Origin: Kiritimatiellia bacterium
GTDB taxonomy: Bacteria; Verrucomicrobiota; Kiritimatiellia; JAAZAB01
Assembly (NCBI GenBank): GCA_028718125.1
Contig: JAQUMN010000002.1
Span: 10,463-74,462, forward strand
Direction: 5' to 3'
DNA: 64,000 bases
A program made the translations under genes and the position numbers. The stretch's first letter is position 1. Every line of letters starts with the position of its first letter. The notes beneath the pieces are model-generated. The model saw nothing but the letters and a program-made list of their open reading frames with translations, was not told the DNA's origin and did no database searches. Positions 14,648 through 42,576 of the stretch are shown here, piece after piece.

Positions 14648-14854
14648 TATAACCCTCCTTGCATAAATGCCGGACTCAGGTGGCGTTTCAGCCGCCATCC
14701 TCCGGATTGAAATCACGTTATGACAACTCGGTTCTTAAAATGCCGGCAAAACAACTCATTGTGCGATCGGTATCAAGAAAAGACGATTAACGCGGTCGAG
14801 ATCCCGCCCAACTGATTAAACAGATCAGGAAAGCAGGGCGCCGCGACCGGCGCG

Positions 14855-17125
14855 TCAAACAATCTCGATCACTCCATAACAACGCAACCAGGCCGAAGGC
14901 ATGGAAATAACCAAACAGGCGTTCTCACGTTGACAGACCAGCGGTCGCTCTCCCCGAAATTCAGGGGACCGCAGCACGGCCTGCCGGCCTTCACAGCGCA
15001 CCTTGATTATCATCTGCCGGCTTCCGCCCGGCAGGCGTTCAATCTGCGGGAAATTCAACGGCAACGGCATGCGCCCCACTTTCCTGTCATCCGCCAACGT
15101 GCCGGCCGCATTGACTATGTGCAGCACATTTCCCTGCCCGTTTCCATGTAAGCTGATGACCACGCCACGGGGAACGCCTGAGGTCACAACCTGACTCGCG
15201 CTGCCCAACAAGCCTCTAACCACCTGGCTCATGACCGTTTCCACCGTCCACTCCCGGGCAAAATCAACGCGCGCAAAGCGGACGCCGCCTTTGCTCATGC
15301 GCGGATGCCGATTTACACAAACAATCCGCCCCGGTTTCCCGGCAAAGGTCACCACCTGCCCCTTGCCGTATGCCTGCCGAAACACCGCCGGTCCTGAGCC
15401 GTCCGCCAGGGTCATCCAGACGTCCGTTCCCTTGTATGGCTTAAACCGTCCCATGGGCACAGCCAGCGCCGGAACCCGCGCCGCCCCCACTATGGCCTTT
15501 TTCACGGCTTTCCATGCCGGTGACCGTCCCAGGACACCAACATAATCCGCGCCCACCAGAGCGGATAATGGATATTCCCGCCGCCAGGCGCCGGTTTCAT
15601 CCTTCAAGCCCGTCTGATGCGTCACCACGCAGCATCCGCCGCGCCGCACAAATCGTTCCACCATCGCCCGTTGCCGCGTTGACAAGCAGACGGCATTCGG
15701 CAGAATCAGGAGGCGCAAGCGGTCCAGATATCGTCCTTCGGCCAAGTCCGTTTCCAACACCGTATCGAAGGGAATATTGGCCAGCATCAACGTCTCGCAC
15801 CAGCCGGCCCAGCAGTCGGTGCTGGCCGGATCACTCATCCGAACATAATCCGGCGCCTGATCGCCGTCCTTGTGAAGCCACACCGTGCGCGTCGAAAACA
15901 AGACGCCCACTTCCGCCACCGGTTGCGGATGATCGTACAGCCGGGGATGGGCCGCTTCAAAACTGTATACCATCCGCAACATGCGTTCCTGCTCCCTGGC
16001 ATCGACTCTCTCATTGGTACCCCAATAGACCTGTCCCCAGCTCTTGGTCATGCCCCAGCAAAACAGGTTTTCATCCGTATTATTGGGATAAAACAGGCAC
16101 ATGGGCGGGACCCGGTTGCGCGCCGCCAGGGCATTGCGCTGCTTGGATTCCGCTCCGATCCGCAGCCAGCAATGCGTTTGCAGATCGCTGGCATTGACTT
16201 CCGTAAATATCACACTATACAGCCCGTCCAGGTTGTCCAGCGACGACCCCATGCCGCGCGCGCCAAACGCGTTGGCGTTGGAACTGGTATATATCGGCCG
16301 CACCAGCTTATAGCCGTGCTTATGAAAATGCGCTACCAGCCGCTCCTGGTGCGCCCGGTGACAATCAATCCGCCATAAGACCCATGCCCGGTAGGCCGGA
16401 TTATCCAAGTTTCCATAAAATGCCTTATCGTCCAAGCCTGTTGGCGGCATCGTATATCCGGTGGCTTCGTTAAACAATGTCCGGCAATAGATGCAACCGC
16501 ACCCATAATCCATGGGGAAAAACGCTATATCGTCGGTCATGATGCCGTCGATTCCACAGCGATAAACGTCCTCCAGATACCGAAAATAAAGTCGCTGCCA
16601 TTCCGGATTGTTAAAACATTGCACAAAACCGTGGTATTGGCTACGGGCATACTGGCCCGTTCGCGGATCGATCTGCCAGAGAGAGGATAGCCGCACACCC
16701 TCATAAAAGGCGTCGCCCATCTGCATATGGCGCAAGAAGCCGGGGTGATTCTTGAGATGCACCTGCGCCACGTTAAAGTGGCCCGAGCCAACCAGCCGCC
16801 ATTCTTCCTCACCCAGGGGATTGGAGGTTAAAATTGCGCTGTGATGCTCCACCACCTTGATCCCATGCGCATGGCAACTGCGGCAGATTTTACGCAGCAG
16901 CACCAGCAGGCGCGGCCAATCATCGGTGAAATTCCAGCGAAAATGCAAAGAGCCGAATGTAATCACGGCATTCACGCCGGCCCGTGCCAGCTTCGCGGCC
17001 TTGCGATCCAAATCCCGGTCCGTGAATGTCAGAAGCTCCTTGTCGCCAAACCAATAGCTGGCCCAGCGTGATTTCCACATCCACGCCGGCGGTTTTCCCA
17101 AACTGACGCGCTTGCTTTTGCTCAT
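14855..17125 (-). CDS. Putative glycosidase (GHL6/beta-galactosidase-trimerisation-like)
   Basis: 756 aa; GCGCIYCRTLFNEATGYTMPP motif shared with the 27302-29389 protein; LRLLILPNAVCLSTRQRAMVERFVRRGGCCVVTHQTGLKDE GATase-like segment. Confidence 0.65.
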   Translation of the reverse strand: MSKSKRVSLGKPPAWMWKSRWASYWFGDKELLTFTDRDLDRKAAKLARAGVNAVITFGSLHFRWNFTDDWPRLLVLLRKICRSCHAHGIKVVEHHSAILTSNPLGEEEWRLVGSGHFNVAQVHLKNHPGFLRHMQMGDAFYEGVRLSSLWQIDPRTGQYARSQYHGFVQCFNNPEWQRLYFRYLEDVYRCGIDGIMTDDIAFFPMDYGCGCIYCRTLFNEATGYTMPPTGLDDKAFYGNLDNPAYRAWVLWRIDCHRAHQERLVAHFHKHGYKLVRPIYTSSNANAFGARGMGSSLDNLDGLYSVIFTEVNASDLQTHCWLRIGAESKQRNALAARNRVPPMCLFYPNNTDENLFCWGMTKSWGQVYWGTNERVDAREQERMLRMVYSFEAAHPRLYDHPQPVAEVGVLFSTRTVWLHKDGDQAPDYVRMSDPASTDCWAGWCETLMLANIPFDTVLETDLAEGRYLDRLRLLILPNAVCLSTRQRAMVERFVRRGGCCVVTHQTGLKDETGAWRREYPLSALVGADYVGVLGRSPAWKAVKKAIVGAARVPALAVPMGRFKPYKGTDVWMTLADGSGPAVFRQAYGKGQVVTFAGKPGRIVCVNRHPRMSKGGVRFARVDFAREWTVETVMSQVVRGLLGSASQVVTSGVPRGVVISLHGNGQGNVLHIVNAAGTLADDRKVGRMPLPLNFPQIERLPGGSRQMIIKVRCEGRQAVLRSPEFRGERPLVCQRENACLVISMPSAWLRCYGVIEIV

Positions 17126-17235
17126 AACACCTTTACTCCTATGATGATTGTCTACTTCTTCGTCTTGTTTTCCGCCTCAAGTGTGCTCGAATTCGGTTCG
17201 AAAAATGCGTCGGCGATCTTGAGCCGCCTCCTTTG

Positions 17236-18438
17236 TTATTTAGGGCTTTGAACTTCCGGCCAGGAACGGTCATTTAAAAACACCGCGATTACGCCCGAAT
17301 CGGCGCCGGAGGCGCTACCGGAAAGAATATCAGGGAAACCGTCGCCATTGAGATCGTCAATACACCATCCGGCCGGAGTTGCTTTAACCTCAACGACCTT
17401 ATCGGACGCCGATTTGGTTCCCGCGAATGGTTTGCCTTTCTTTTGCAGAAAAATATGGATTTTGGATATGGACTGCTTCCTGTCCGCCACGATCAGGTCC
17501 ATTAAGCCGTCATTATTGACGTCAGCCGTGGTAAAATTCATGCCGGCAGTTCCCTCGATTATCGCGGAGGGACCGGTTCGATCGGCAAAACCCATGGGCG
17601 CGGCCTGATAGTATATTCCTATGTTCCCATTGGTCCCCGAACAGGAGATAATAATATCTTCCCGCTCATCCCCATTAAGATCCCCAACCCCAACCTGAAC
17701 TAAATGAGCCGGCGCCGGGAGCTCGACCAATTTCAATGCATCCTGCGCTTGGACGTTCATGACGATAAAAGGCCCATAATAGATCCGCACAGCATGCACC
17801 GGCCGCGCATCAATAATCCGCGTCGCGAAAATCACATCGTTTACCCCGTCAAAATTCAGGTCCGCCAAAACACCCATGCCGTTATCGTTTCTCTTTGGTC
17901 CGGAAAAATAACCGTCTTGCATCCGGTCGCCGCCCGACCATTTTCGCCAGACAGGTCCGACAAGGAAATCGCTAATTCCGGACTTGCTGATTTTACCAGT
18001 GCCCAGCGTTGTTTCGTATTGATTCACATCATAAAATTGATGATCGAGCGCCAGCCCTTCCCGGCCCAAAAAAAGATGCAAGCGCTTGGCGCTTGTAACT
18101 GCCAGGTCATTCTTGCCGTCGTCATCATAATCGCCTATTTTAATACGATGGGCGCCGGCAATGGCAATTTCTTTGTCGAAGGGATTAGTATAACCGCCGC
18201 CTTTTTGATAATAAATACGCAAGCTATTTTTAGCCGGGGCGGTCCCGCCGCTCCCGCCGGCGTCCTCGAAAGACACGGCCAGATCCGGGAAATTATCTCC
18301 ATTCAGATCCCCTGTCGCGACGAAGAGCGGCTTACCCGAGCTGGTCAATACCAGCGAAGGTTCGGAGGGGAAATTCGCCCACCCCCACCCCGTCAATAAC
18401 ATTAAAACCACGGCGCCGCAACAGATTGTTCGGCTCAT
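17236..18438 (-). CDS. Secreted FG-GAP/VCBS-repeat protein
   Basis: Repeated GDLNGDNFPDLAVSF, GDYDDDGKNDLAVTS, ADLNFDGVNDVIFAT, GDLNGDEREDIIIS, ADVNNDGLMDLIVAD, DLNGDGFPDILSG. Confidence 0.9.
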   Translation of the reverse strand: MSRTICCGAVVLMLLTGWGWANFPSEPSLVLTSSGKPLFVATGDLNGDNFPDLAVSFEDAGGSGGTAPAKNSLRIYYQKGGGYTNPFDKEIAIAGAHRIKIGDYDDDGKNDLAVTSAKRLHLFLGREGLALDHQFYDVNQYETTLGTGKISKSGISDFLVGPVWRKWSGGDRMQDGYFSGPKRNDNGMGVLADLNFDGVNDVIFATRIIDARPVHAVRIYYGPFIVMNVQAQDALKLVELPAPAHLVQVGVGDLNGDEREDIIISCSGTNGNIGIYYQAAPMGFADRTGPSAIIEGTAGMNFTTADVNNDGLMDLIVADRKQSISKIHIFLQKKGKPFAGTKSASDKVVEVKATPAGWCIDDLNGDGFPDILSGSASGADSGVIAVFLNDRSWPEVQSPK

Positions 18439-18460
18439 TCGGCAATCCCCATGTCAGATT

Positions 18461-20680
18461 TCACCCCGATTTCCTGATCAGCGCGTAATTCAGCATGTAA
18501 AAAGGAGGGCCAATATTATTATCGCTATCCTCGATGTTTTCGATGCTCAGGGAATTATCCGCATTTTTCATGAATGCGGCCTTGATGACAAACTTGTGTT
18601 GCGACCAACCGAACTGCACGAAAGGATTCTCGCCCTCGAAAACCACGTTGCCGTTAACCAATATCCGGATCTTGCACTTGTTCGGCCCATCGTCATCCTG
18701 CCCGGAAACGATGAGCGTATAGTCTGAAGCCGGATGTTCCGGCAGATCGAAGGTCGCGTGGAGTTTATCGGCCTTGCTCCGGGCGCCGTAGATCCAGCTG
18801 GCGAGGCGCTTTTCGCACTTGTACGCATAGAGATCAGCTGGGCGTCCGGAAAAACTGTAGGGCGAAAGAAAGATATCTTTGGCCGGATCGAAAGCACTTT
18901 CCTTTTTGGCCATTTCCCGCACATCCTGTTCCTGTTGCCCATAAACCGCAAGGTCCGGATTTTTCAATAACCCGTTCAAGAACGATTTCTGCTGCTTGAC
19001 ATGGTTTCCCAGGCTGGTCCACTTTTCGACCGCGGCCGGGTGATGCGCGAGCGCTTTATCCCAGGCTTGCTCCAATTCCGCAACTTTTTCTTTGATCTCT
19101 TTACTGTTTTTGGAGGCGCCGGGGGATACGCGCAAACCATACTGATCGAACCAACCGAGTTGCCGATTCAACTCCACCAGCGCAGGCCAGGTTTCCGCGC
19201 CGGTGAGTTTCTTGGCCGCCTCCTCGATTGCCTGCGCGGCGTCGTAGGCCCCGGGGTTCCACAGGTAGTCCCACAGGGTCAGGAGCGCCGCCGTCGGATG
19301 AGGCACATTGGTGTTCAGAGCGTAGAGTTCAATGTCATTAAAGAATCCGTCATAGTACCAATCCCGCCACGCCGCCACGGGGTCCGTCACGTAGTGATAA
19401 CCATAGGCATGTAATGCGCCCAGCCCATTCTGGAAAACCCAGGGTTTTCTCCGGATAAGAGCGCTGATCCATTGCACATTTTCCCTGGTTATCCCGGACG
19501 ACCCGACGCTTGGGCCGGTCCAGCAAATTCCGACCTCCTTCGGCAAGCGCGCGCCCAGTGCGGAAAGATATTCGTCCCGGCCTTCAGGATAAGCCGCGGA
19601 CGCAGCGGGTCCCCAATAGAATGGCGGACAGAACCAGAGATGTACCCCCGGATACTTTTCCTTTAAGGCGGCATACAATTTGTTGAGCAAATAGATGTCG
19701 GCTTCGCGTGCGCTCCCGAAGTCCTTCATATCCGCCGAACTGATCGGGAACCGGGTGTCATCCCATAACAGCATTACATTGCCCCCGGCGGCGGCAATCA
19801 CCGAAGCCGTCTTGAAAATCGCGGTAAAATCCTTTTCGTCCTTACTCCGGATCTTCCCCTCGGATGGCCCGCGAATGGGCCCGCCGATGCCGATATACCA
19901 TTGGATCCCCAGGGGATTAAGAAATGCCGCGACTTTCCTCATTTCCGCTTTCCAAGCCTCCGGCAATTCAGCGCGCCAGATTTCCGCCTCATTTAAGGGA
20001 GACTTTCCGTCCAACAATTTGCCGGAATGAAAAATCAGCGTGTTGCACTTGAAGGCCGCCGCCACAAACGCCCAGTCACTGCCGGTTCCCGACCAGGGGC
20101 TTGCCAGCCAACCGCGCTTTCCGGGAAATTCCGGCCAGTCAGATACCTGGGCCTTGCGGGCCGCCGCTTTTCCATCCCGGCGGGCGATCAACTGGTTCAG
20201 GGAAACCACGCCCCAGGTGAAGCCCAGGTTGTCCCGGCCTTGCACAACAAGCGCCGGCACGCCATTATCCTCTGCCGGGAGAATGATATAGCCTTCCGCC
20301 TGCTCAGGCAGTTTTGTCTTAAGTAAAAGGCGCCGGGCCAAAGCCGTATCTCCAAGGGAGATGACGGTCCGGCCGGACAACTTTTCTGGAACCTTGTCAA
20401 CAACTTCCGCCTGTCCGCCATTGGAAGCAATGCGGTCCAGAAGCATATGCACGCGCGGATCGTCCGCTTTGATGCCCGCGCCGAGAAGGATGCCGGCACG
20501 GTCAAGCGGCATGAATTCATCGGCATACGTGACTTCCCGCGGCGCGGGTGAAATGACGCCGGTGTAGAAGGGAATCTCGTACCCGGAGAAATCACCGGCA
20601 AACGCCACGGACATGGCCCCCCCTACAACCAGCCACAACAAACACAATGGGAACGCGCCATACCGATGCTTTGTTTTCAT
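18461..20680 (-). CDS. GH84-like beta-N-acetylglucosaminidase (secreted)
   Basis: Layout of GH20-type N-domain (PREVTY...) followed by KRGWLASPWSGTGSDWAFVAAAFKCNTLIFHSG...LLWDD...YPGVHLWFCPPFYWG...ICWTGPSV...WVFQNG...FNDIELYALNTNVPHPTAALLTLWDYLWNP; signal peptide at MKTKHRYGAFPLCLLWLVV. Confidence 0.75.
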   Translation of the reverse strand: MKTKHRYGAFPLCLLWLVVGGAMSVAFAGDFSGYEIPFYTGVISPAPREVTYADEFMPLDRAGILLGAGIKADDPRVHMLLDRIASNGGQAEVVDKVPEKLSGRTVISLGDTALARRLLLKTKLPEQAEGYIILPAEDNGVPALVVQGRDNLGFTWGVVSLNQLIARRDGKAAARKAQVSDWPEFPGKRGWLASPWSGTGSDWAFVAAAFKCNTLIFHSGKLLDGKSPLNEAEIWRAELPEAWKAEMRKVAAFLNPLGIQWYIGIGGPIRGPSEGKIRSKDEKDFTAIFKTASVIAAAGGNVMLLWDDTRFPISSADMKDFGSAREADIYLLNKLYAALKEKYPGVHLWFCPPFYWGPAASAAYPEGRDEYLSALGARLPKEVGICWTGPSVGSSGITRENVQWISALIRRKPWVFQNGLGALHAYGYHYVTDPVAAWRDWYYDGFFNDIELYALNTNVPHPTAALLTLWDYLWNPGAYDAAQAIEEAAKKLTGAETWPALVELNRQLGWFDQYGLRVSPGASKNSKEIKEKVAELEQAWDKALAHHPAAVEKWTSLGNHVKQQKSFLNGLLKNPDLAVYGQQEQDVREMAKKESAFDPAKDIFLSPYSFSGRPADLYAYKCEKRLASWIYGARSKADKLHATFDLPEHPASDYTLIVSGQDDDGPNKCKIRILVNGNVVFEGENPFVQFGWSQHKFVIKAAFMKNADNSLSIENIEDSDNNIGPPFYMLNYALIRKSG

Positions 20681-20952
20681 CGAAAACTCCTGGTAAATCA
20701 ACCTTCCTTCCGCGGCACGGCATAGCGCCGCTACGGCGCGACGACGGGGAGGTATCGTATTCGCCACCATGACTCGCCAAATGGCGTAAACTCCGGCGGA
20801 AATTTCCTGCGCATCAAATCAGCAAAAGCAAAACACGGGAACTCGTCTCCTCCGCTCATAGTCGCCCATGTCCACATACCTCATCCGCTCTGCGCGCCAC
20901 ATTCGGCAGGTAGAGATCATTATTGTTCTCTGCCGCTATTCATGGCAACGAT

Positions 20953-22353
20953 TTACCGGCCATTTCCGGTGATTAACATCCCTTTCGGCAGATACTCGTA
21001 ACAGCCCATATCCACCACATAGCTGAAGCGGTCAACCCGGCGCGAGCCGGACAGGTCCACCGCACCGGCCATCCATGCCTGGTTTAGGCCGGCATTGATT
21101 CCAGGAGAATCCGCCGCCGGACGAAAGCCGCCCCCCTGGAATACCGGTGCATTGGTGGTGTTATCCTTGCCGGGCAATTCAACCGAAGACATGCAATTGG
21201 AACAGACCACATAATTTGTGCTTAGCACGTCGCTTAGCACATTGGAGCAAATGATGGTGTTCACCAACACCATTTTGTTGCCGGTCGCATAAGCGTCAAA
21301 CACATACAATCCGTATTTCATGTTATTTACAATCGTGCAATTTTCAATCTTACCACCCCCCGTATACCCCGGGCTAACCACCGCCGCCTTGGACGACACA
21401 TTGGTATTATACGCAATCAGACAATTGCGCACCCACGCATTGGAGCCATAAATATGCACGCCGCTGCCGTCGCGCGAGGAGCCGGCTGAGGTCTGCACGT
21501 TTGACACAATTCGACAGTTTTCCACCCCTCCGCTGGTCATGATATTCACGCCCCCACCGCAAGCTACAGCCGTATTATTGGCAATCGTACAGTCGCGGAC
21601 AACGGTATTCGGCGCATCATTCATATAGATGCCGCCCCCGCCATTCCAATTAGAAGTGTGATTTGCCTTATTTCCGATAATCTCACAATGTTCCACAACG
21701 CCAACGCCCGAACCTCTTAACCCCAAACCGCCGCCCAAGCTGGCGGCATTGGAAATTATCAGACAATGCGTTATCTTGCTTTGGTCGGCGTACATTACAA
21801 TACCCCCGCCCCACCACGCATAAATTGACGATTGATTGTTGCTAACAATACAGTTGGTCAGCGTACCGCCATACATCAAAACGCCCCCACCGATATGCAA
21901 ATCGCCGACAACACCACCCCGCATGGTGAAGCCATCCACCATCGCGTTTGCGTTATCCAGGTACAAACACCGGTTGGTGACCGGTTTGTCTACATAATTG
22001 TTGCCGTCCAGGATTGTCGCCATGCGTTCCGCAACCCCAGCGACATTCCAACTCCGCAGCACCACGGCATTGGTAACTACAATCTGGTTGGTCAAATAAT
22101 ACGTGCCGTTGCTGACAAACACGATATTGCCGTTATTGGTGTTGATTGCATCCAAAGCGTCCTGAATGTTCGTGGCCGCCATGCTCCAGTTCGTATACGG
22201 CCACTCCGAAGTCAGCGTACCCGGCGTCACCACAAAGACATTGGTGGCCAAAGCGCAAACACCCACCCCCCACAACACAACCATTGTCAGAAACCGTAGC
22301 CCACGCGCGCCAAACATTGCATTTCTGCAAAATTCTATTGCCATGGTTTTCAT
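20953..22353 (-). CDS. Secreted right-handed parallel beta-helix protein
   Basis: Repeated NxGGGGIYMNDAPNTVVRDCTIANNTA / GGGVNIMTSGGVENCRIVSN rungs; C-terminal DMGCYEY motif typical of such proteins. Confidence 0.8.
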   Translation of the reverse strand: MKTMAIEFCRNAMFGARGLRFLTMVVLWGVGVCALATNVFVVTPGTLTSEWPYTNWSMAATNIQDALDAINTNNGNIVFVSNGTYYLTNQIVVTNAVVLRSWNVAGVAERMATILDGNNYVDKPVTNRCLYLDNANAMVDGFTMRGGVVGDLHIGGGVLMYGGTLTNCIVSNNQSSIYAWWGGGIVMYADQSKITHCLIISNAASLGGGLGLRGSGVGVVEHCEIIGNKANHTSNWNGGGGIYMNDAPNTVVRDCTIANNTAVACGGGVNIMTSGGVENCRIVSNVQTSAGSSRDGSGVHIYGSNAWVRNCLIAYNTNVSSKAAVVSPGYTGGGKIENCTIVNNMKYGLYVFDAYATGNKMVLVNTIICSNVLSDVLSTNYVVCSNCMSSVELPGKDNTTNAPVFQGGGFRPAADSPGINAGLNQAWMAGAVDLSGSRRVDRFSYVVDMGCYEYLPKGMLITGNGR

Positions 22354-22504
22354 GTGATTATAATCCTTCCCCATTAGCATCCTACAGGATGCTCAGGCTT
22401 CGGCGTCCATATGGAACACCAGTGATCCTTCCCCAAAAAAATACACAACTATTTTTTTGTTTTATTCGAGAATTATATCGCACGTTAGTCAAGCTAGCGC
22501 TGAT

Positions 22505-22670
22505 TCAGGACTGCGTCAAGAACGGTCTCGCTGGAGCTCCCGCCGTCGTCCGGCAACTGCCGGACTATGGCGGTCAGGCTGCCCCTCGGCACGAATGCCA
22601 ATTTTTTCGCGATATTGGAGGGCGAAGCGCCTGCGACGCCGCTGGTTTCAGCATGGATGACGCCGGCTGA
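22505..22670 (+). mobile_element. Dispersed MITE/REP-like element, copy 1
   Basis: tcaggactgcgtcaagaacggtctcg...gtccggcaactgccggac...ttcgcgatattggaggg...gacgccgctggtttcagcatggatgacgccggctga; strongly similar to 52131-52324 (inverse) and 63317-63478. Confidence 0.75.
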
Positions 22671-22701
22671 CGCGAGCGCCCGCGTTCACGCGCCCATCCA
22701 T

Positions 22702-25700
22702 TTATTTTTCATAACAAACAACTACTGCTTCATGGACATCGAATGGGCGCACTTCCAACAAAGCTCCGCCATCCACGAATGCGACCTGCAAGGCAACCTT
22801 GTCAGCGGCATAAAACGCTTTCACACGCTTTGCTTCCTGGTCGGGAATCAAAACTTTGATTTTAATCCCTTGCACCGGCATTTGCCTCTCGTCGTAATTC
22901 AACAGTTGCACTAACAAACGCTGCTGTTCAGGCTGCAATTTCGCGTGAACCTCCACGTACCAGGGACAATCCATTGCTGTAATCAGCGGCGCGCCGCCGG
23001 TCAATTTATAACCGGTTTTGACCATGCCCGCCAATATCTCGCGAATGCCTGTCCAGTAGCGTTTGAACAAAGTCCAATGATAAATTGTGCGACCTTGATC
23101 CCACATCAAACCCGGATAAGACGCTGTCAGAAAAAAACAATAGCCCTTGCCGTATTGATTCAAAGACAGTGCCGTTGTTTCGTCGGCCGTCCATTGTCCC
23201 AGGGCTTTCGCCGTCGTTAATTTAATTTGGTCATGCCCCAGGCCGGCGTCATATTCAATCTCGCCGCTAAATTCGGGCGCTGAGGAGATAGGGGGGAATT
23301 GCATGCGGAAGCGTTGGGCCTCCGCTTTTTTGCCGCGCCATGCTGTATCAAGTGTCTCCAGTGGCCAGCGGCAGGTGTTGGTAACAAAGCCGGCCCCAAA
23401 CACGTCAGCCAGGCCATAGTTTTCGCGAGCGCGGCCATAACGATCATATAATGTCGTTGTGCCGGTGGCGATCAAAACACCGCCAGCGCGCACCCAGTCG
23501 CGAAGCAGGTTTTCCTCCTGCTCGGTCATGGTTTTGGCATCGGCCAGAATCAATATTTTATAAGGTCGCAAAGAATCACCGGTCATGGTTTCGGCCCAAA
23601 GCATGTCAGCCTGGATATGCTCGTAGACAAGCGCCTGGTAAATACCGGCGTTATTATCCATGTAAGGGCTCCAGGAATCGTGAGCGTTGCTCCGATCACG
23701 ATCCCGGGCGTCATTCCGATAGATGAGTCCCGCAGTTCGGCCGGAGTGGATAATAGCGACTTCTTGCGGATAATCCGGATTAACCAAATAGGGCTCCATT
23801 TGATCTATTTTGGCGAACATCCGGCGCGTGATTTCCCATGCTTCGGGCCGCCCGCGTCCTTTATCGTTCAACTGTTTGAAAATATCGCCCCAATACCAAA
23901 CATACATTTGCTGGCTATGCAGGAGCGAGATGCCGATCCCGATTTCCCAGCGCCTGGTCAACTGTTGCGGCAATCTCCAGATATAGACCTCCATGCCCAC
24001 GGGATAACGCAGGCCATCACGGCTCATTTCCGCCAGAAACCCGTTTTCATACGCGCAGGTGCTATATGTCGGTTCCGTGCCGTTGAAATCGAAAATATGC
24101 GCCATATTGCCCCAGCCGGCCAGGTTGACAAGTTGGTTGCAGGATGGCCCCGAAATTGTGGAATAATGGCCGATCGCGCTTCCTTTCTTGAGCATATGCA
24201 GGTATTCCACCATTTCCCGCGCGCCCTCGGCGCTGTTGGCGTCCATGGCTTCCGCATATTCCGCGAAACTCTCGCGTTCCTGCCAGCGCGCATCAATATC
24301 AACATGCCTCTGATTCGGCGTTTTTAATGCCGCGCATATATTCGTTTGCAGCCTCAATTGCGCGCGTTGCTCCGTGGAATAGCGCCGTTCGATACGCTGG
24401 CGGTAATAATCGCGAATATCATCGAGGGTGATTTCAATTCCGCCTTCCTCGCCCCATAGGCCGCTGAACGCCGGATACGCGCCATAATAACACACCAAGC
24501 GATTGAAATGCGCCTTGCCAAACGCGCCCACATGATTATACGCGGGCAGACAGCGCATGCCGGCCTGTTCCGCCGCGTCAAAATAGCGCCGCGCCTCCGA
24601 CAAGGGCGACGGCATTCTCCATTCCAAAAATTCGGTGCCGCGCGCGTCCTGCGCATAGCGCACAAAGTTTTCAATCCGTGGCGGACGATTTCCCTCCCAG
24701 GTCAGGTACCGGCCGAAGCCGCGATGAAAGCGACTATCCAGCCAGTAGAAATAGCGCCGTTCCTTTAAAAACTCCGGTTGAATAAGACCGCGTTTTTTTT
24801 CGGCATCCGGATTTTGAATGCGTTCCAAAGCATGCTCGGGGAGCACGCCACCAGATTCTATTTGCTGCCCCCAACTCGGTTGTTTTTGTCGAAAGGCTGC
24901 CAATTCCCGGGCTGTCTGTTCATTGCCCGCTTCCCCCAATGCGAACATCGCCGAAGACCTTATTTCCCCTTCGATATCCGATAAAAGCTCCATGAACATC
25001 GGAAGCGCTTGTTGGTCGCCGATGCGACCCAGGGCAAAGATAGCCGCCGAGACCGTGTTCTGTGGCCCATTGACTGCAATGCGCTGCTGCCAGACATCCA
25101 ATTCCTTATCTTTCCGGTCACGCCGGTAGTTTTTGACTATTTGCATGAGTTGTTCCGTCGCATTGGTCGCGCGCAGCCAACCCAGACCAACAATGGCATT
25201 CTGGCGCACTGCTCCATCCGGATCATTCATGAGCTTCATTAAAACGCCAACCACACGTTCGTCCCCGATTTGTCCCAACGCCTGCGTGGCGCGCCGTCGC
25301 GTCCAGATATCGTTATGCGCCTCCGCCAATTTCACAATCGGCTCCACCGCTTCCGGCACGCGTAGCCAGGCCAAGCCATTTAGTGCATGCCGACGCACTT
25401 CGCCGTCGTCATCTTTTAACAAGGCGATCATTTTGTCCTGTCCGCGGCTATCGCCCAATCGACCTAATTCCCGAGCGCCAATTATGCGCTCCGCCGGGGA
25501 AGAGCTGTCCACCTGTTTCATGGCTGCCATGTAATCCGCTTCAAACCGGCCGATTTCTTCGGCGCGTGTCCGCTCTTCCGTCTTTTTTCTGGCCTGCGCC
25601 AGGCGTTGTTTTTCCGTTTTCAGTTGTTCGCGCAAAGCCGTCACTCCGGCTTCAATTGGGCGCAAGCCCTCGCTCTGAATCCCGGCCAACTCGTCGAGAC

Positions 25701-27120: not shown

Positions 27121-27156
27121 ATTGTGTGTGTTTTTGAGTCAGGTTGGCCCTTCCGT

Positions 27157-27281
27157 TTAATACTCCACCGCCGCCAATTCATCGACATCAACATCCCTGA
27201 TCCGGCATATCATACGTTGTTCCGGACAACCGTCTCAACCGGCCGGCGATCGCAACCATAAAACGCCCGCATGATCGGCAC
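27157..27281 (-). pseudogene. 3'-end remnant of a HEAT/GH-family paralog (frameshifted)
   Basis: Minus strand reads MRAFYGCDRRPVETVVRNNV then, one frame over, RMICRIRDVDVDELAAVEY*; aligns with KRVFYGNDQQPVETFSRNDTLICRIRNLEVYEMIVLE* of the 29431-33231 protein. Confidence 0.75.
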
Positions 27282-27301
27282 GCGCCTGTGGCGGCGCGGC
27301 C

Positions 27302-29389
27302 TCATTTCAATTCAATAACCTCATACCCTTTCAAGCTGGGCAAAATCAAAGAGACTGTTTCCGAATATTTCTCCACGAGCAGTTCCCTGTTCAACCACAG
27401 CGCCTTTGCTTCTTTGACATCCATGCCTGAAAGGGCGATTTTCAAGTCGGTTAAAGGCTGGATGAAAGTCATGGGACGTCTCGGGCCTGAGGACCGGTTG
27501 ATCAGGTGAAGAAAAACTTTTTTTCCCTTCCTTCTCAAACTCGCTTCCACCCAGGACGCGTTATCGTTATTTATGGCGACCAAGGGCGCGCAGGTCTTAT
27601 GGCAGATGTTTTTTATCAGATTAAGATATTCGGGAAAATGAAAACAGGAAATGCCCTGCCCGAATGTCCCGGCCAGATAAAAGACCTTTCCTTTGCCGAA
27701 ACGGTTCTCAACAAGGAAAGGTTCGGAGGAAAGCTTTGGGTTGCCGTCATAACGCCCCTTCAGCCTTTCACGGTAATAGATAAGCGGCGTGCCGGTGGTG
27801 GGTTTTACTTTTATCCCATAGGCTGGCGCGGGAATATAGCTGTTCGTTATGTTTTTCAGGAAAGCCGGATCAATTCCTTTTACGGGCGAGACAAAGTCCC
27901 ATTCCATTTTGCCGAAAATCTCTCCGGTGAACTCAACGCCGAAAAGTTCCTGCAACTGGAAATGATTCTGTTTTTGCCCGGTTCCATTATAGAGGGATGT
28001 CTCAAAGGTTGCGATTAAATTTCCGCCTCCCTTCACGAAATCGCTTATTTCAGCGATCGCGCCAGCCGCAAGGCATGCGGCATTCGGCAAAACCAGCAAA
28101 TCATAATTTTTCAAATCATTGATGTTCTCATTGTCAATGACATCCAGAGGAAGCTGTGCTTTCGCCAGACTTTCATAAAGCCCCCGGAATTCCTGCACGA
28201 TATCGCCGATTCCCTCGGCCTTGATCTCGCGGGTAAAGTCGGACAGCGGAATGGAAGAGCCGCTGTAAACTTCGGCCGTGGCGGATGGCCAGAGAAGCGC
28301 TATCCTGGCTAAAGACTTTGTCTGGAAGAAAGGATCGGGATTATCCTTAACGAAACGATTGTAGTCTGTTATTACATCCATCTCGGGCTGGTTGAGATTC
28401 TCAGGCATGACAGCGGTCCAGTAGTTTGCTCCGCCTGCCAGAGTTTCGGCCAGAAGAATGCTGATTTCCTCTTTCGGCAGAAGATAGTATGTCCATGGTT
28501 TGAGCATGCCGCAGCTGAAAACAATGCCCGGTTTTCCCTGCGCCTGTCTGGAAAGGATCCTGGCCGCCATTCCCGCCTTGTAAACAGGAGAGGCGTTTAA
28601 ATCTCCATGCAGAAAACCTCCCTCAGCGCCGAGCAGGTCGCTGTGCTTGATGATGCGGTGATTGTCCCTGCCGGTTGGCCAGTAAGGCGCATTGCTGTTG
28701 CAGTTCATGCATAACATGATTTCCGGATTGGCGGTTTTGACTATGTCATTGGTGTCTGAAAGAAATCTGGCGATGCTGTCGGCCTGGAATTCCACAAGTT
28801 CTTTCCAGAGCGGATTTTTCCGGTCGGACTTCAACGGCATATCCTTGCCCGTCCTTTCCCTGAACAATCTCCGGCAGGTATCGCAGTAGCAGCTTGAATC
28901 AAAGAAAATCGGGCCGTCGTAGAAAATTCCGTCAATTTCATATTTGCATAAATCAGCCACGATCTGAAACACCCAGTTCCGATAAGGGCCGTTAATGCAA
29001 AAGGATGTTCCCGTGGTATAGATATTGTCAATGGCTTTGCCATTTTCCTTGATCTGCTGCCAGTCGGGATGTTCTTTGCCGAATTCCATTGTGTACCAGT
29101 GGACGTTGAAATAAACAATGACCTTTATCCCGTTTTTATGCGCCATTGGCAGATACTCTCCAAGGAGATCAGGGTTTTCTTTCCTGCTCAGGCTCGTTTT
29201 GAAGCAAAAACCGGTCTCATCAAGCCCTGCCTTGTGCTGCATGCAATGGAAATGCTGGACGTTTGCCCCAAGTCGTTTGATGGCCTCCACTTCTTTTTGA
29301 AGCGGGAGTTCGGGGTTGAAGCAACTGCAAATCTCGGCAATCCTTAACGGTTCCTTGTCCCACCAATGCGGCATCTTCGATGTTTTCAT
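27302..29389 (-). CDS. Putative glycosidase paralog (GHL6/beta-galactosidase-trimerisation-like)
   Basis: CYCDTCRRLFRERTGKDMP motif; YDLLVLPNAACLAAGAIAEISDFVKGGGNLIATFETSLYNGTG; start at MKTSKMPHWWDKEPLR chosen. Confidence 0.65.
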   Translation of the reverse strand: MKTSKMPHWWDKEPLRIAEICSCFNPELPLQKEVEAIKRLGANVQHFHCMQHKAGLDETGFCFKTSLSRKENPDLLGEYLPMAHKNGIKVIVYFNVHWYTMEFGKEHPDWQQIKENGKAIDNIYTTGTSFCINGPYRNWVFQIVADLCKYEIDGIFYDGPIFFDSSCYCDTCRRLFRERTGKDMPLKSDRKNPLWKELVEFQADSIARFLSDTNDIVKTANPEIMLCMNCNSNAPYWPTGRDNHRIIKHSDLLGAEGGFLHGDLNASPVYKAGMAARILSRQAQGKPGIVFSCGMLKPWTYYLLPKEEISILLAETLAGGANYWTAVMPENLNQPEMDVITDYNRFVKDNPDPFFQTKSLARIALLWPSATAEVYSGSSIPLSDFTREIKAEGIGDIVQEFRGLYESLAKAQLPLDVIDNENINDLKNYDLLVLPNAACLAAGAIAEISDFVKGGGNLIATFETSLYNGTGQKQNHFQLQELFGVEFTGEIFGKMEWDFVSPVKGIDPAFLKNITNSYIPAPAYGIKVKPTTGTPLIYYRERLKGRYDGNPKLSSEPFLVENRFGKGKVFYLAGTFGQGISCFHFPEYLNLIKNICHKTCAPLVAINNDNASWVEASLRRKGKKVFLHLINRSSGPRRPMTFIQPLTDLKIALSGMDVKEAKALWLNRELLVEKYSETVSLILPSLKGYEVIELK

Positions 29390-29430
29390 TTCTCCTCCTT
29401 CTTGTTGTTTTCCTTCATGGTTTAGATTCG

Positions 29431-32400
29431 CTACTCCAGCACGATCATTTCGTAGACCTCCAGGTTTCTGATCCGACATATCAATGTGTCGTTTCGGCTA
29501 AACGTCTCGACCGGCTGTTGATCGTTTCCATAAAATACTCTTTTCGGTCCGGCGCCGGTTCCCTGCAACGGCAGCTCAAGCTCGATGCCTTTCACCGGAA
29601 CGTTGGTCAGCGAATGGTTGATGAAATGCAGAATCTTCCTGGACGGGTTCGCCTGCAACCGCATGGTGACTTCCACGTCTTCAGGACAGTTTTTCACAGT
29701 AAAGGGAAGTTCGGATTTCGTCAAGGCAAGGCCCTCCTGAACGGAATCCGCCAGGAATTCCTTGATGCCTTTGAAAAACTTAATATCTCTGGCAAAAGGC
29801 GACCGGATCTTCATGCCGGTAGACGTCAATGAAAGCCCGGGATGATAAGCGCTTATAAACAAACAACCGCCTTTGCCATTGCGATTAAACAACACCGCCG
29901 GCTCGCCATTTTCCCATTTGGCTTTGACTGTCCCCGTGGTCGGTTCCACAAGGTCATAGGCATCCGCCTTGCACAGCGTTTGATCGGGCGCCTTGCCGAA
30001 TGACAGGTTCCCCTTGGTCTTTTTGGTCTGGACATATTTGACGCCTAAAACATCGCCAAGCCGATAATCCTTCTGATGCCGCCCCCAAACATCCAAGAGC
30101 GAACTGCCGCCGGTCGCAATCAGGTAGCCGCCACCCGCCACCCATGCGCGGATCAATGCCAACGCTTCGGGCTCCAGGGACCCGGCATCGGAAAGCAGGA
30201 GCACTTTGTAGCGCTTGAGCGTTTCGGCCTTTAGCCCATCGGCATAGATCGGATCGCACTGAATGTGCGCGTGAGCCAAGGCCGCGTACAGCCCGAACTG
30301 ATTGCTGAAATAAGGGCCGTAACTGCAAGGGACACTATAGTCCTCCAGATTGGCTGAGCGTTCGGAGTATATTAAAGCTGTCTCGGCCACAGACGCCGTT
30401 TTGACCAAATACGTGTTCATCTGTTTCGCTCTTTGGGTATGCTCGATGGTCGCCGCCCATATTGCCGCGCGGTCACCGCAAAGCCGCGCATCGCGATCGC
30501 CCCACCCCTGCTTGAAAGTCGTCCACCAGGCAAAAAATTGATTGCCCTGCGCATGGGCGCAGCTCATGGCCAGGGCCCGGCGATAGGTTTCCACATTGCC
30601 GCCCTGATGCAACGCGGAAGTGAAAACCGAAGGTCCCCGGGCATTGGCCCGCAACAGTTCCAGGAAAAAGGACTGAACCGGGTCGCCGCCCACCCAGATA
30701 CTGCAGGCGACCACATCCGCGCAGGCCGACAAGCGCGACCAGCGGCAGGCAAAAGGAATCCCGATAAACCGGGCGCGATTGATCAAGCGCCAGACCACCA
30801 CGTCTTCTTTGACGCCGTGCAGATACTCATACAGCTCCCGCCAATAGGCCGCGTGGCCGTCGGAAAGAAAATCCTGATATTCCATCCAGAGCACTTGATG
30901 GGCCTCACGGTCTTTGGACGTAGGTAGGTCGATTTCGTTCAATGCGCCCAAACCCAATGCTGCCAAACGGGCATTGTCATATTTGTTCTTCAAGTAGTTT
31001 CGGAAAGGACCCACCATTTTTTTTCGATTTTCAGCGCTGATATTTCCAGGTTGCAGGTTGTAAAATGCATAATGGTCGTCACTCAAGACTTCATCCAGTT
31101 GAACGCCAACGAAAGACGGATACTTCGCGCCTTGCTTGATTAGACAGTCCTCCACCTTTTTCCTCCAAACCAGCATGGCCGGGTCAATGAAATAAGGCAT
31201 AGCTGGCGGCTTGCCGACCTCATTGTCGCCTTGGGGCCAGTACAGCATCCGAATGCCATAGCGCCGCATCTCGGGCTCCATATCGCTTAAGGTCGCATGG
31301 AGGTTTTCAGGGGACTGACGGCGAAAGTCATATTGATTCTCGATTACGTTGAAACCATAATGGCCCAGGTACCGCAACGTTTCGACGCGCCCCGGAACCA
31401 GGAAACCGTCATCGAACATGTCCAAAAGGAAGGTGTTTTCCAGCCATGCCTTGGGATCGCCATACGGCTTGGACGTAACGGGCAATTCCTTCCTCAAGAC
31501 CGCCAGCTTGGAACAAAAAGGGCTTGTTTCCGCTTGAAGTTTATCCTTGAACTCCTTGATCGGCGGCAGGTAGCGTTCCTGCCGCGCCGCGCTGGTGGTC
31601 ACGTCAAATTCGTCAACTGCATATTTGGGATGGGGAAGCGCTTGGGCCTCCAAACGCAAATTTTCCCATTCCTTTGCGGTGCGCTCGACGGGCAGGTCCG
31701 CCTTTTTCAGTAGGGCATCGAAAGGCTCCGCGCAACGTTTGCCGAAATCATCCAGCCGGGCGGGGATAGCATGGCGCGCATCAGCGATCTGTCGCTGGTA
31801 GGCTTCATATTCGGCCCCAGATATTTTACCTTTGATCTCTTCGGCGTCAAACCCGGCAATATCAAGCATGGTCTCGATTTCATTGCCGGCGGAAGTGATT
31901 TGAAATAATGTCGCTTTGCGATCACGGCTGACGTCCGCTTTCATTTTTTCCCGGAACAGAAGAACCTTGGCATGTTCCGGGTCCACCGCCCTCCCGGCGC
32001 TCACCCACTGAATGCTGTTGAGCAGCAAGCCCAATTCATTGCCTTGCGGCGGAAGTTCCTTGTTCCCTTCGGCCAAGCCTGTTGCAAAGGCTATCTGCAA
32101 AACACGGCCCCGTCCTGATATTCCGGCCACCACCACCGCGCGCCCCTCGCTGTCCTCGCTTAGAACCTGGCCGGCGGCGCCCGCGGACATGGTAATATAG
32201 TCGCCGTAAGCGCATTCAATTGCGGCGGGCAGTCCTTTAAAGACCGGATGCGCCGGGTCTTTTACCTGAAAAGGCCGGGAGACAAAATACTTTCCCGCAC
32301 ACTTGGCGATTTCCGGAAAAAGCGGGTCGACTAACGGACCATTGTACCCCACGGAGTTATGAAAACATATAAGCCCGCCGCCGCTCAAAACAAAAGCCCG

Positions 32401-33231: not shown

Positions 33232-33344
33232 AGTTGGGTTCTTTCGTTTGTAGTTTATCATCCGCAACATTTGATTCTTCGTAACCACTTCCGTGTTCAG
33301 TATTCAGGAATCAGAATTCAGACAGTAGCATCTACTGCGGCATT

Positions 33345-36300
33345 TCACTCAATGATCACCATCTCGTGAATATCAAGGTCGCGCAGCCCAAAACGCAGGT
33401 AGTCGCCCTGCCGTTCAAAAACCATATCTTGGTTGTTATCGGGGTAAAAGACCCGGCCGGCGCTCTTGGGCGCTTTGACCTTCAACGTTATACCGGATAT
33501 TTTGGCTTTTATATTGGCCTTATAATTAAGGATCTGGATTATTTTCCGTTTTCCGCCGTCCTGGTCCTTTAGCACGATTTCAACCGTTTCCGGACAATTC
33601 TCCGCTATTATCTCATCGGGGGTATGACTCAAGTCGCAAGCCTTGGCCAACAATCCTTTTAGCAGGGCAATATTGCCGGGATAATATTCGCGGTAAAGCG
33701 GATAAGAACTCAGCACTTCTTTATACTGACAGGCCAGTCCTGCTCCAATACCGGTCAGAAACAGGCAATATCCCTTGCCGTAAGAGTTGAGCGTCAAAGC
33801 CGGCGAGCCATCTCTCCAAGTCCCGAGAACTTGCGCGGTGACCGGATTGACCTTGTCGTAACCCGCACGCAGGTCGTATTCCACCCGGCCGGTAAACCAA
33901 TCTGCTTTGACATCAGCCTCGGCAACATACTGTTTTTCCACCAGGTCGCGCGGCAGGTCGAAGAATTTGTTGTCGTTCGTGCCCATGAATTCCCGGCCGG
34001 TAAAATTTACTCCGAACACGTCCGAAAACCGATAATTCTGTTCCTCGCGGCCCCAGCGATCGCATAATGAAGTGGATGCCGTGCCGATCAACACTCCGCC
34101 TTTATTCACCCAGTTCCGAATAATAGCCTCCTCCCCCGGGGTAAGGGACCGGGCATCGGGAATGATCAATGTTTTATATTGATCAATTTTTTTGGCTGAA
34201 AGCGTCTCGGCCCAGATCAGATTGAACTGGGCATGCGCATGGCATAGCGCCTCGTACCAGCCGCGCAGATTTTGCGCATAGCGGGTTTCTGTAAACGTCT
34301 GCACCGGTCCTAAAAAGCGCCCGTAAACCGTGGCGGTAGTGCGGCCGGAATAGACCAGACCAAGCTGGCGTGGAGTTTCAACATTGATCAGATAACGCTC
34401 CAATTTCTCCGCTTTTTGAAATGATTTGGTAACGGTTTCCCACATGCCCGGTTTCCAGTTGCCTCTTTCTTCGCCAAATGTTCCGGGATGCTTAAAAGCC
34501 TGGCCCCAGACATAATTCATGAATCGCTGGCTGTGCGCCATACCGATGGCCATGCCCAGATCATAATGCCTAGCATCAGGCGCTCTGAACATGTATACCT
34601 CCATGCCCACCGGCCGCGCCTCGCCGTCACGGCAAAGCTCGGCCAGGAATGCATTATCGTAAGCGGCCGGCGAATAAGAAGGCTCGGTACCGGGCGAATC
34701 AATATACATTCCCAGTTTTGCGTAAACTGAGATGGTATAGCCCTTGCAGGCCGGAGCGACCGTGATATCGTACATGATGGGCGTGTTTTTTCTGCGTTGG
34801 CGCAGCCAGTCGGCGTTTTCCCGCCAATATTCCAGACACATTGCGTCAGCCGTTTCGATGCATTCGGCATATAATACTGGATTTTTCTGTTTGATTTCCA
34901 ACAAGTGCATGTTCTTCAACAAATCGGCGTTAAGCGCGTTATCGGTCAGGCCGAGTTGTCCACGCATTTCCGCGGGATAATCGGATTTTATTTTTTCCTT
35001 CAGCCTGCTTACAAAATACGGTCCGGCAACGCCGCACCGGACAAAGTCAAAGTGCTGTTGGCTGGCATAATTCATAGGCCATTCCTCGCGCCAGATGCCG
35101 CCAAATGCCGGGAAGTCGCTAATTTCATCCACAAGCGCCGCGATTTCCAGCTTAGTAAACGTCTCGTGGCTATCGGGGCAGGGACCGCCGGGGAACAGTT
35201 TAAGGCCAGCGTCCTCGAACGAATGCATGAAGTAATCCGTGAATTCCATCTGCATGTCAACCCATTTGGAATCGTTAAAAAACGCACAACTTTTGTAAGG
35301 CAGATATGACACCATTTGATTAATGCCGTTGCCCCCGGCCTGTCCGGCATATTGATGAATCAGCCATTGCGATGCCGGCCGGCACCAGTAATCTTGCACC
35401 CTCTGAAATATCCGGTGATATCGATTGTTGGCCACATAAAAATTTTTCTTTGTTTTCAGGAAAGCGGGCTGAACAATTCCGGACGTCGCCGGCGTTTGTT
35501 TTGCGGATTTGATTGCAGCGACGGCATACTGCGCGCCTCCCCACACAAATGCAGACCCGCGGCCGCCAACTTTTTTGGAAACGGCAAAAGAGGCAGCTTT
35601 TTCCAGAAGGGGGATATGTTGCGTTGTCCCGCATTTGCCCAGTCCAAGGCATAGTCCATAGAGGAATTGATGGGGGGCGTCTTTTTTGAGGTTGGCCTCC
35701 AGAAGTTTGGCCAGTTCCTCTGCCGCCGCGTTTCCGCCGATCTCACCCAGCGCTTTTGACGCCTGTCCTTTGAGCTCTGCGTTTAATCCGCTCTCCTCCA
35801 GACTGATGCCCTCGCGTATTATCTTAACAAGGCCCGGGATTGCATTGGTGTCTCTGAGCCAGCCCAGCGAAATAATGGCGTTTTCAACCAGATAAAAATC
35901 CGCGCTGTTATTGAGCAAAGGAATCAGCATCGCGGTCGCTTGCCGGTCGCCGATCATGCCCAGCGCCTGTATTGCGCGGCACCGCCGCCACGGATCTTGG
36001 TTTTGTTGCACAATCCCGGACAGAGCCGGCACGGCCGCGTGCGCCCGCATCCAACTTAACGCATAGACCGCATTGCGAAACACAGCATCATCAGGCGCGG
36101 CTAAAAGTTCGACCAATTCCGACACGGCCTCAGGATATTCCAGCCGGCCGATTTCAAGCGCAGCGGCCGACTGTTCGCGCAAGTCGCCGTCTTTGATGTC
36201 CTTCATCAGACGGGCAGTGTCAGCATTCTCCTCCGACGGCATAGGGCGGGCCTTTTTCTCGTGGCTGGCCACAAATCCCGCGACCTTGTCCCGGAGCATA

Positions 36301-37403
36301 TCCGTGATTGTTTCAGGGAAAATTGTCTCGCGCCAGATCATGGGAAAAACTTCGTTGCCTTCGAAAGACGAGGCTTGCAAGGCTTCCAGACTCTGTCTCC
36401 TAATCGCGGCTATCTCTTTTTGCAGAAATTTCTCCTGGTTTTGCCTGGCGGTTTCCTGTGCCGCCGCAAGCTGACCTAAAAGCGCCTCCTTTTCCGCGCC
36501 ACCTTGCATGGCGTCAACAGTAAACCATAGCCGGCTCAGTTCATTATCAATGGTGTAATACAGGTCTTTTATCCGCTGGTCCGCAGAAAGCGCCGCCTGT
36601 GCGCGCGCCGCTTGCAAACGAATCTCCGGCCGGACATATGTGGCTGCGCCGGTTTCCCTCTCCGCCACACCACCTACCCAGCGAATCGAGTTGACCAGCA
36701 GGCGCCCGACATTTTTTGCGCTGCTCTCAGGCGAGGTGGAATAATTGAGCGCGAAATATATGCCCGCAGCCACGACTCGACCTTTGCCCACTGCCGACGC
36801 CACTACCAATGGTCTGGCCTCTTCATCCGTGTCCGTGCAGACAATCTCCACCCCATTACTTTGCCTAACCGTCATTGGCGCGTGTTCGGGATAACAATGA
36901 TAAAAGATAGGATCGAGTCCCGCGGCAACCGGATGGTCAGGTTTTGCCACTTTCATACCGCAACCATACCGTTGACCGGCGCTGTCCGGGCTTTGAAATT
37001 CGGGAAAAAGCACGTGCATGAACCACCTGTTATAGGAATCATGGGCCAGCAACAAGCCGTGCCCGCGGCACACGTATTCAATCAAACGGACGCGGATATC
37101 GCTGTCCAAACGCATGTAGTTGGGCTGCCACTTAGCCCCCAAGAAAAGCGCATCGTAGTCGTAGATCTTTTCGATCCAGCCGGTTTTTGGCAGATACTCG
37201 GCTTTTATGCCTTCCACACCGTTCAAATACTCGCAAACAGCTTTTTCTTGTTCCGGGAATACCCCCACCTTGATCAAGGACTCCGGCTTGGCCTGTTCGC
37301 CGGCCATAATCACCCCGCTTAACGCAAATACACTCATAACAAACACGGCGCTTTTGAACAGGGCGGCGAAGGAACATGTAATCACATTTTGGTAAATACG
37401 CAT
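33345..37403 (-). CDS. Secreted multidomain putative glycosidase: ThuA-like + HEAT repeats + GH-like + GATase-like
   Basis: 1357 aa ORF; HEAT units (DAVFRNAVYALSWMRAHAAVPALSGIV / DPWRRCRAIQALGMIGDRQATAMLIPLL); YKTLIIPDARSLTPGEEAIIRNWVNKGGVLIGTASTSLCDRWGR. Confidence 0.65.
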   Translation of the reverse strand: MRIYQNVITCSFAALFKSAVFVMSVFALSGVIMAGEQAKPESLIKVGVFPEQEKAVCEYLNGVEGIKAEYLPKTGWIEKIYDYDALFLGAKWQPNYMRLDSDIRVRLIEYVCRGHGLLLAHDSYNRWFMHVLFPEFQSPDSAGQRYGCGMKVAKPDHPVAAGLDPIFYHCYPEHAPMTVRQSNGVEIVCTDTDEEARPLVVASAVGKGRVVAAGIYFALNYSTSPESSAKNVGRLLVNSIRWVGGVAERETGAATYVRPEIRLQAARAQAALSADQRIKDLYYTIDNELSRLWFTVDAMQGGAEKEALLGQLAAAQETARQNQEKFLQKEIAAIRRQSLEALQASSFEGNEVFPMIWRETIFPETITDMLRDKVAGFVASHEKKARPMPSEENADTARLMKDIKDGDLREQSAAALEIGRLEYPEAVSELVELLAAPDDAVFRNAVYALSWMRAHAAVPALSGIVQQNQDPWRRCRAIQALGMIGDRQATAMLIPLLNNSADFYLVENAIISLGWLRDTNAIPGLVKIIREGISLEESGLNAELKGQASKALGEIGGNAAAEELAKLLEANLKKDAPHQFLYGLCLGLGKCGTTQHIPLLEKAASFAVSKKVGGRGSAFVWGGAQYAVAAIKSAKQTPATSGIVQPAFLKTKKNFYVANNRYHRIFQRVQDYWCRPASQWLIHQYAGQAGGNGINQMVSYLPYKSCAFFNDSKWVDMQMEFTDYFMHSFEDAGLKLFPGGPCPDSHETFTKLEIAALVDEISDFPAFGGIWREEWPMNYASQQHFDFVRCGVAGPYFVSRLKEKIKSDYPAEMRGQLGLTDNALNADLLKNMHLLEIKQKNPVLYAECIETADAMCLEYWRENADWLRQRRKNTPIMYDITVAPACKGYTISVYAKLGMYIDSPGTEPSYSPAAYDNAFLAELCRDGEARPVGMEVYMFRAPDARHYDLGMAIGMAHSQRFMNYVWGQAFKHPGTFGEERGNWKPGMWETVTKSFQKAEKLERYLINVETPRQLGLVYSGRTTATVYGRFLGPVQTFTETRYAQNLRGWYEALCHAHAQFNLIWAETLSAKKIDQYKTLIIPDARSLTPGEEAIIRNWVNKGGVLIGTASTSLCDRWGREEQNYRFSDVFGVNFTGREFMGTNDNKFFDLPRDLVEKQYVAEADVKADWFTGRVEYDLRAGYDKVNPVTAQVLGTWRDGSPALTLNSYGKGYCLFLTGIGAGLACQYKEVLSSYPLYREYYPGNIALLKGLLAKACDLSHTPDEIIAENCPETVEIVLKDQDGGKRKIIQILNYKANIKAKISGITLKVKAPKSAGRVFYPDNNQDMVFERQGDYLRFGLRDLDIHEMVIIE

Positions 37404-38876: not shown

Positions 38877-38882
38877 GAATTA

Positions 38883-39776: not shown

Positions 39777-39852
39777 TTCACAACTCTTTCGATTATTATT
39801 CGTCCGATTAAAAAGCCTCCGGGTTCTCCTGCCTAATCCATTCGATGTCATA

Positions 39853-42225: not shown

Positions 42226-42310
42226 ATTTTCAACTTCCATTGCTTCACGGCTTTTAAGCGGATTTTGGTCGAAATAATAAGTGAAGGTACTCCTGGATAT
42301 CGGAGTTCTC

Positions 42311-42560: not shown

Positions 42561-42576
42561 TCTTTTCGAGTAATCA

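Follow-up and report, generated by a model that had tools for sequence, protein, structure and literature searches.

Enzymes of glycoside hydrolase (GH) family 42, such as Gan42B (4oif/5dfa) and BiBga42A (8ibr), are built in the order of barrel, trimerization domain, and C-terminal domain, and the position of the trimerization domain after the catalytic barrel is described for both GH42 and GH164 (PMC7105311). The same trimeric three-domain build exists outside GH42 in the GH164 β-mannosidase Bs164 and the trimeric GH5 mannosidase Op5Man5 (Verrucomicrobia), whose published abstracts mention no HEAT or ThuA modules (PMC7105311, PMC8233224). In GH151, for which at most two members per genome have been reported, the counterpart of the trimerization domain is a Rossmann-fold domain, and the published nucleophile is D154 (PMC10154630). 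Here, we compare these systems with five homologous open reading frames (ORFs), P0001 to P0005, all on the minus strand of a window of 64 kb from contig JAQUMN010000002.1 of a Kiritimatiellia bacterium. P0002, P0004, and P0005 carry one kind of barrel (type A), and P0001 and P0003 carry another (type B). With a probability of about 0.6, the type A proteins are secreted, divergent GH42-like glycosidases with diversified heads and, in P0002 and P0005, a HEAT arm, accompanied by cytoplasmic, GH151-like P0001 and P0003, the set serving diverse glycans.

The segment common to the five proteins corresponds to Glyco_hydro_42M (GH42M; PF08532), which lies above the Pfam curated cut-off in all of them (E values of 4e-9, 4e-8, 3e-14, 1e-8, and 5e-12 for P0001 to P0005, in order). 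An earlier analysis made from the letters alone, the sequence-only reading, had reported these ORFs, their homology, and the shared segment, and all of this is borne out. Its description of the segment as a GATase-like core is replaced: by domain assignment, the segment is the known trimerization domain of GH42 β-galactosidases and not the catalytic part, and two distinct barrel types are found instead of a common core. The consensus YKxLxLxDAxx..., proposed for all five together with a following VFG block, fits well in P0002, P0004, and P0005, is diluted in P0003 (NYDLLVLPNAACL...FVKGGGNLIATFETSLYNGTGQ, then LFG), and is weakest in P0001 (LRLLILPNAVCL...FVRRGGCCVVTHQTGLKDETGAW, then LVG); the VFG block is literal in P0002 and P0005 only. 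The Cys motif assigned to two proteins is exact in P0001 (CGCIYCRTLFNEATGYTMP) and P0003 (CYCDTCRRLFRERTGKDMP).

At E values up to 0.1, no Pfam model, PF02449 included, recognizes the barrel of P0002, P0004, or P0005, and a genome-wide PF02449 search gave matches elsewhere, with none of the matches listed falling on these three proteins. Profile comparison with hhalign matched the type A family to 27 GH42 barrels from relatives with a probability of 97.9 and an E value of 4.2e-13 over 254 columns, while HEAT, CBM (carbohydrate-binding module), and ThuA control profiles were null in the same comparison. When placed against the PDB, the type A profile matched the GH151 structure 6tvk and GH42 chains; its sequence relation to GH164 is weak (6t5o, E value of 0.047). 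Unlike GH42 enzymes, to which they show about 13% identity, most type A proteins lack the Cys cluster, carry added HEAT, ThuA, and CBM modules, and are probably secreted. A P0004-like paralogue on contig C27 lies above the PF02449 GH42 cut-off. The P0004-like paralogue at L106:9495-11243, above the GH42 Pfam cut-off, retains CxxC...F..YLKQKY in GH42 style downstream of the acid/base Glu and forms a bridge between type A and GH42. In three further type A relatives (L101:7457-10798, L108:8757-12017, and L089:1612-4143), the barrel profile matched in two adjacent stretches, and those of L101 and L108 have an additional GATase-like piece after the core.

The GH42 acid/base Glu, nucleophile Glu, and following His all have aligned counterparts in type A (profile E value of 4e-13), a putative active-site mapping of E779 and E940 (P0005 numbering) made by profile alignment only. 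E779, present in 45 of 45 aligned type A members, falls on the acid/base Glu in the HMMER alignment, with the hhalign alignment about one column off there; E940 falls on the nucleophile Glu in the hhalign alignment, and H962 is again present in 45 of 45. Members that bear a HEAT array have EE at 778-779 (29/29), E940 in 24 of 29, and an invariant E867 (28/28), whereas those without it, P0004 among them, have DE at 778-779 in all 16 cases and Glu at 940 in none of the 16. Architecture and catalytic signature therefore go together. As the subgroup without HEAT keeps the acid/base Glu and lacks the aligned nucleophile, it can be hypothesized that P0004 and its kin use another residue as nucleophile or are not standard hydrolases.

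Direct comparison of type A and type B barrel profiles gave no significant match, and the two are consequently handled as separate branches. In Pfam, P0003 matches GHL6 and GHL10 (PF14871, E value of 1.4e-13; PF02638, 1.6e-11) besides GH42M (PF08532, 2.9e-14), with DUF6259 below its cut-off. A five-member profile of its family aligns with the GH151 α-L-fucosidase ALfuk2 (6tvk) at an E value of 1.1e-28 in three collinear stretches, over the barrel, GATase-fold, and C-terminal domains, and CxCxxC is common to both (PMC10154630). In the pairwise alignment, D188 of P0003 falls on chain position 183 of 6tvk, which is read as D154 because the chain has 689 residues against 660 in the paper numbering, giving an inferred offset of 29. 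E286 is invariant in the P0003 family; the 6tvk alignment stops short of the GH151 acid/base E235 and the inter-subunit H503. The barrel of P0001 is homologous to that of P0003 and has the same arrangement of Asp followed by a Cys cluster; its profile has no direct barrel match to 6tvk and reaches only an E value of 0.29, inside GH42M. Thirteen type B proteins occur across the G000 and G008 regions searched, compared with the reported GH151 maximum of two per genome. The true start of P0003 is probably internal Met31, at about 29389, and with it the apparent overlap of P0003 and P0004 disappears.

The arrangement of modules outside the core was described in the sequence-only reading as differing N-terminal cargo, swapped among members of a family diversified in one locus, with ThuA-HEAT-GH and CBM-HEAT-GH architectures that seemed undescribed. 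The cargo itself is largely as described, with a CBM pair and HEAT in P0002, HEAT in P0005, and none in P0001 and P0003 by Pfam and domain parsing. The ThuA assignment is less direct, as PF06283 scores 23.8 bits in P0004, below the curated cut-off of 33.4, and the Pfam scan reported no match in the N-terminal domain of P0005; the label ThuA-like is used for both because of their mutual N-terminal homology (E value of 2e-11) and weak ThuA matches in paralogues. Swapping is mostly not upheld. The common architecture, seen in three lineages that include another genus and another family, is ThuA-HEAT-core, and copies without a detected ThuA mostly start at contig edges. CBMs take the place of ThuA in only five proteins of one small group (P0002, L096, L097, L104, and L125). 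Module distances covary with the core (Mantel r of 0.84 for core-HEAT and 0.91 for core-ThuA), which rules out free swapping; the modules are mostly co-inherited. Nearest neighbors of the modules agree in less than half of cases, and occasional exchange among close paralogues may occur. The HEAT arm has a median identity of 44%, against 29% for the barrel, and is the more conserved in 97% of pairs. HEAT repeats resembling this arm are also seen at the C terminus (amino acids about 462-619) of a protein with a major facilitator superfamily transporter domain at 9217-11571 on the minus strand.

A diversified glycosidase-like family is indeed present, and it extends well beyond one locus. The window genome (4.13 Mb, 92 contigs) has 44 PF08532 matches, and a search with the HEAT-type barrel gave 22 strong matches in it, that is, at least 22 HEAT-bearing copies. 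The same search recovered six matches from a second genus within this family, further members from three genomes belonging to a different family, and nothing from the four genomes of the same genus that were searched; in total, 5 of the 346 genomes sampled from the class have members, a rare and patchy occurrence for the HEAT-GH group. When named genomes were scanned with a three-row alignment, one locus was returned, L125, in a Victivallaceae metagenome-assembled genome (MAG), an 18-row alignment scan of genome contigs gave no conserved stretch, and a search of viral contigs with the family alignment found no relatives. The nearest relative of P0002 is 55% identical and lies on another contig, and the best relatives of P0005 and P0004 are 36% and 34% identical; in all three cases, the nearest relative sits on a different contig or in a different MAG. 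The locus thus brings together distant members, and an origin of the type A proteins by local tandem diversification is rejected. The architectures remain without a description in the open-licence literature, where no paper joining HEAT or ThuA to a GH42-type enzyme, or HEAT with a GH and a trimerization domain, was found.

Table 1. Proteins, domains, and neighboring genes of the locus (window positions; aa, amino acids)
Feature	Position	Strand	Description or evidence
P0001	14855-17125	-	Type B barrel with TDD...CGCxxCR motif (D198, predicted nucleophile equivalent) + GH42M; no signal peptide
FG-GAP β-propeller protein	17236-18438	-	PF13517; recurrent partner of the GH84-like gene
GH84-like NAGidase with GH20b domain	18461-20770	-	PF07555, E 5.5e-20
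Right-handed β-helix protein	20953-22380	-	PF13229, E 3.5e-24; directly downstream of P0002
P0002	22702-27120	-	1472 aa; CBM_4_9 x2 + HEAT + type A barrel + GH42M + C-terminal domain; signal-like N terminus
P0002 type A barrel (aa 778-1112)	23785-24789	-	Profile comparison and conservation
P0002 HEAT array (aa 528-775)	24796-25539	-	PF13646, E 3e-31
P0002 two CBM_4_9 domains (aa 43-366)	26023-26994	-	PF02018, E 6e-11
P0003	27302-29479	-	Type B GHL6/GH151-like barrel + GH42M + C-terminal domain; no signal peptide
P0003 D188	28916-28918	-	Aligned with GH151 nucleophile D154 of ALfuk2 (alignments to 6tvk)
P0004	29431-33288	-	1285 aa; CBM-like + ThuA-like + type A barrel (no HEAT) + GH42M; signal-like N terminus
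P0004 Glyco_hydro_42M (aa 968-1151)	29836-30387	-	PF08532, E 1.1e-8
P0004 type A barrel (aa 618-961)	30406-31437	-	D732-E733 pair; no Glu at the aligned nucleophile site
P0005	33345-37418	-	1357 aa; ThuA-like + HEAT + type A (GH42-like) barrel + GH42M + C-terminal domain; signal-like N terminus
P0005 Glyco_hydro_42M (aa 1047-1230)	33729-34280	-	PF08532, E 5e-12
P0005 type A barrel (aa 647-1010)	34389-35480	-	hhalign to GH42, E 4.2e-13; E779 putative acid/base, E940 putative nucleophile, H962 invariant
P0005 HEAT array (aa 399-640)	35499-36224	-	PF13646, E 8e-20
P0005 ThuA-like domain (aa 61-249)	36672-37238	-	Homology to P0004 ThuA-like domain, E 2e-11
Upstream genes: MocA oxidoreductase, amidohydrolase-like, DegT aminotransferase, AraC regulator, DUF4838 protein, one unknown	37920-45770	-	

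The five genes belong to a run of about 15 genes, from 13634 to 45770, all on one strand. An Omptin-family outer-membrane protease (13634-14716, minus strand; PF01278, E value of 6e-57) stands at the end of this run, and a plus-strand gene at 46017-49070 encodes NTP_transf_3 and GHMP kinase domains in one protein of 1017 aa, which resembles a fused sugar kinase/nucleotidyltransferase. At L125, a P0002-like gene is followed by a β-helix-like gene and preceded by a DUF4838/NAGLU-like gene, both judged by eye. About 20 members of the GH84-like family, near full length, are spread over the genome and share 32-47% identity with the one in the window, and the β-helix family occurs in over 20 places. 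Within 10 kb of HEAT-GHs lie 8 of 20 GH84-like and 9 of 24 β-helix genes, against 2.0 and 2.4 expected under uniform placement, an expectation that ignores the general clustering of carbohydrate genes. Other HEAT-GH loci have differing neighbors, for example GH36, GH106, GH2, or a SASA esterase. With only three sulfatase matches genome-wide, a sulfated substrate is unlikely, which argues against a sulfated-glycan system; from GH84 and a NAGLU_N trace, glycans containing N-acetylglucosamine are no more than a plausible guess. In most of the type A proteins that are complete, the N terminus is strongly hydrophobic, and in type B proteins it is not, from which secretion of type A and a cytoplasmic location of type B may be inferred.

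When these results are placed together, P0002, P0004, and P0005 would belong to a GH42-like three-domain superfamily, made of a (β/α)8 barrel, a GATase-fold trimerization domain, and a C-terminal β domain. P0002 and P0005 would represent a clade with HEAT repeats, whose members have a conserved arm of these repeats ahead of the core and a ThuA-like domain or CBMs at the tip of the arm. By homology, such proteins may form trimers via GH42M and cleave glycosidic bonds by the retaining mechanism of clan GH-A, in which E779 would be the acid/base and E940 the nucleophile, and it is conceivable that the HEAT arm anchors or positions the fast-diversifying catalytic head. P0001 and P0003, with a GH151/GHL6-like barrel and a putative Asp nucleophile, could then finish imported oligosaccharides in the cytoplasm. 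It could further be speculated, as a long shot, that the arm is a shared docking module that gathers many different secreted GH42-like heads, diversified for many glycans, on one cell-surface or scaffold partner, in a cellulosome-like logic based on HEAT repeats.

Several observations weigh against this interpretation. Five of the 29 HEAT members have Q, G, or H in place of E940. AlphaFold2, run on the P0002 and P0005 cores with four-sequence alignments, left the barrel unmodeled (mean predicted local distance difference test score [pLDDT] of 55; predicted template modeling scores of 0.63 and 0.56), with barrel pLDDT below 50 over most of its length; no fold claim is taken from these models, and the Foldseek matches to GH42, GH164, and GH151 support mainly the non-barrel part of the core because the barrel is unmodeled. 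The GH151 acid/base E235 and inter-subunit H503 cannot be placed in the type B alignments. Homotrimers are predicted from the presence of GH42M, signal peptides were called from hydrophobicity, and enzyme activity is assigned by homology for all five proteins. Greater conservation of the HEAT arm could reflect repeat packing rather than a partner.

Were all five proteins ordinary GH42 or GH151 members of known architecture, with HEAT and ThuA incidental, the presence of GH42M throughout, the resemblance of the P0003 family to GH151, and the profile homology of type A to GH42 would be accounted for. The type A barrels without a Pfam match, the restriction of the HEAT-bearing group to a few genomes of the class, and the lack of a precedent in the open-licence papers searched speak otherwise, and we regard this explanation as improbable. 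We give as little credence to the proposal that much of the family is catalytically dead and serves in glycan binding or scaffolding: the nucleophile Glu missing throughout the no-HEAT subgroup, its substitution in five HEAT members, and CBM and ThuA-like domains that could bind glycans would all suit such a role, but strict retention of the acid/base Glu and following His across type A, and of E867 in HEAT members, would be unexpected in dead enzymes.

A dedicated system for one complex glycan, as envisaged in the sequence-only reading, has somewhat more in its favor and is still doubtful. The same-strand run with its AraC regulator and GH84-like, β-helix, and DUF4838 neighbors fits such a system, and the order of P0002 and then β-helix seems to recur in L125; however, the type A proteins have their nearest relatives elsewhere, the GH84-like and β-helix families are expanded genome-wide, neighbors differ among loci, and sulfatases are few. 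The preferred reading, of divergent GH42-like and GH151-like enzymes for diverse glycans, instead takes the locus as one of many in a genome that has expanded its HEAT-GH, GH84-like, and β-helix families, a set that probably serves chemically diverse glycans rather than one.

In conclusion, what appears to be new is a HEAT-armed GH42-like enzyme family, expanded in few genomes and without a described counterpart in the open-licence literature. If the barrel is active, it would probably constitute a new GH family inside the GH42-like superfamily. With so many copies, a single genome offers a natural series for studying how specificities diverge next to an arm that remains conserved, and the HEAT arm raises the testable question of how these proteins are presented or put together at the cell.

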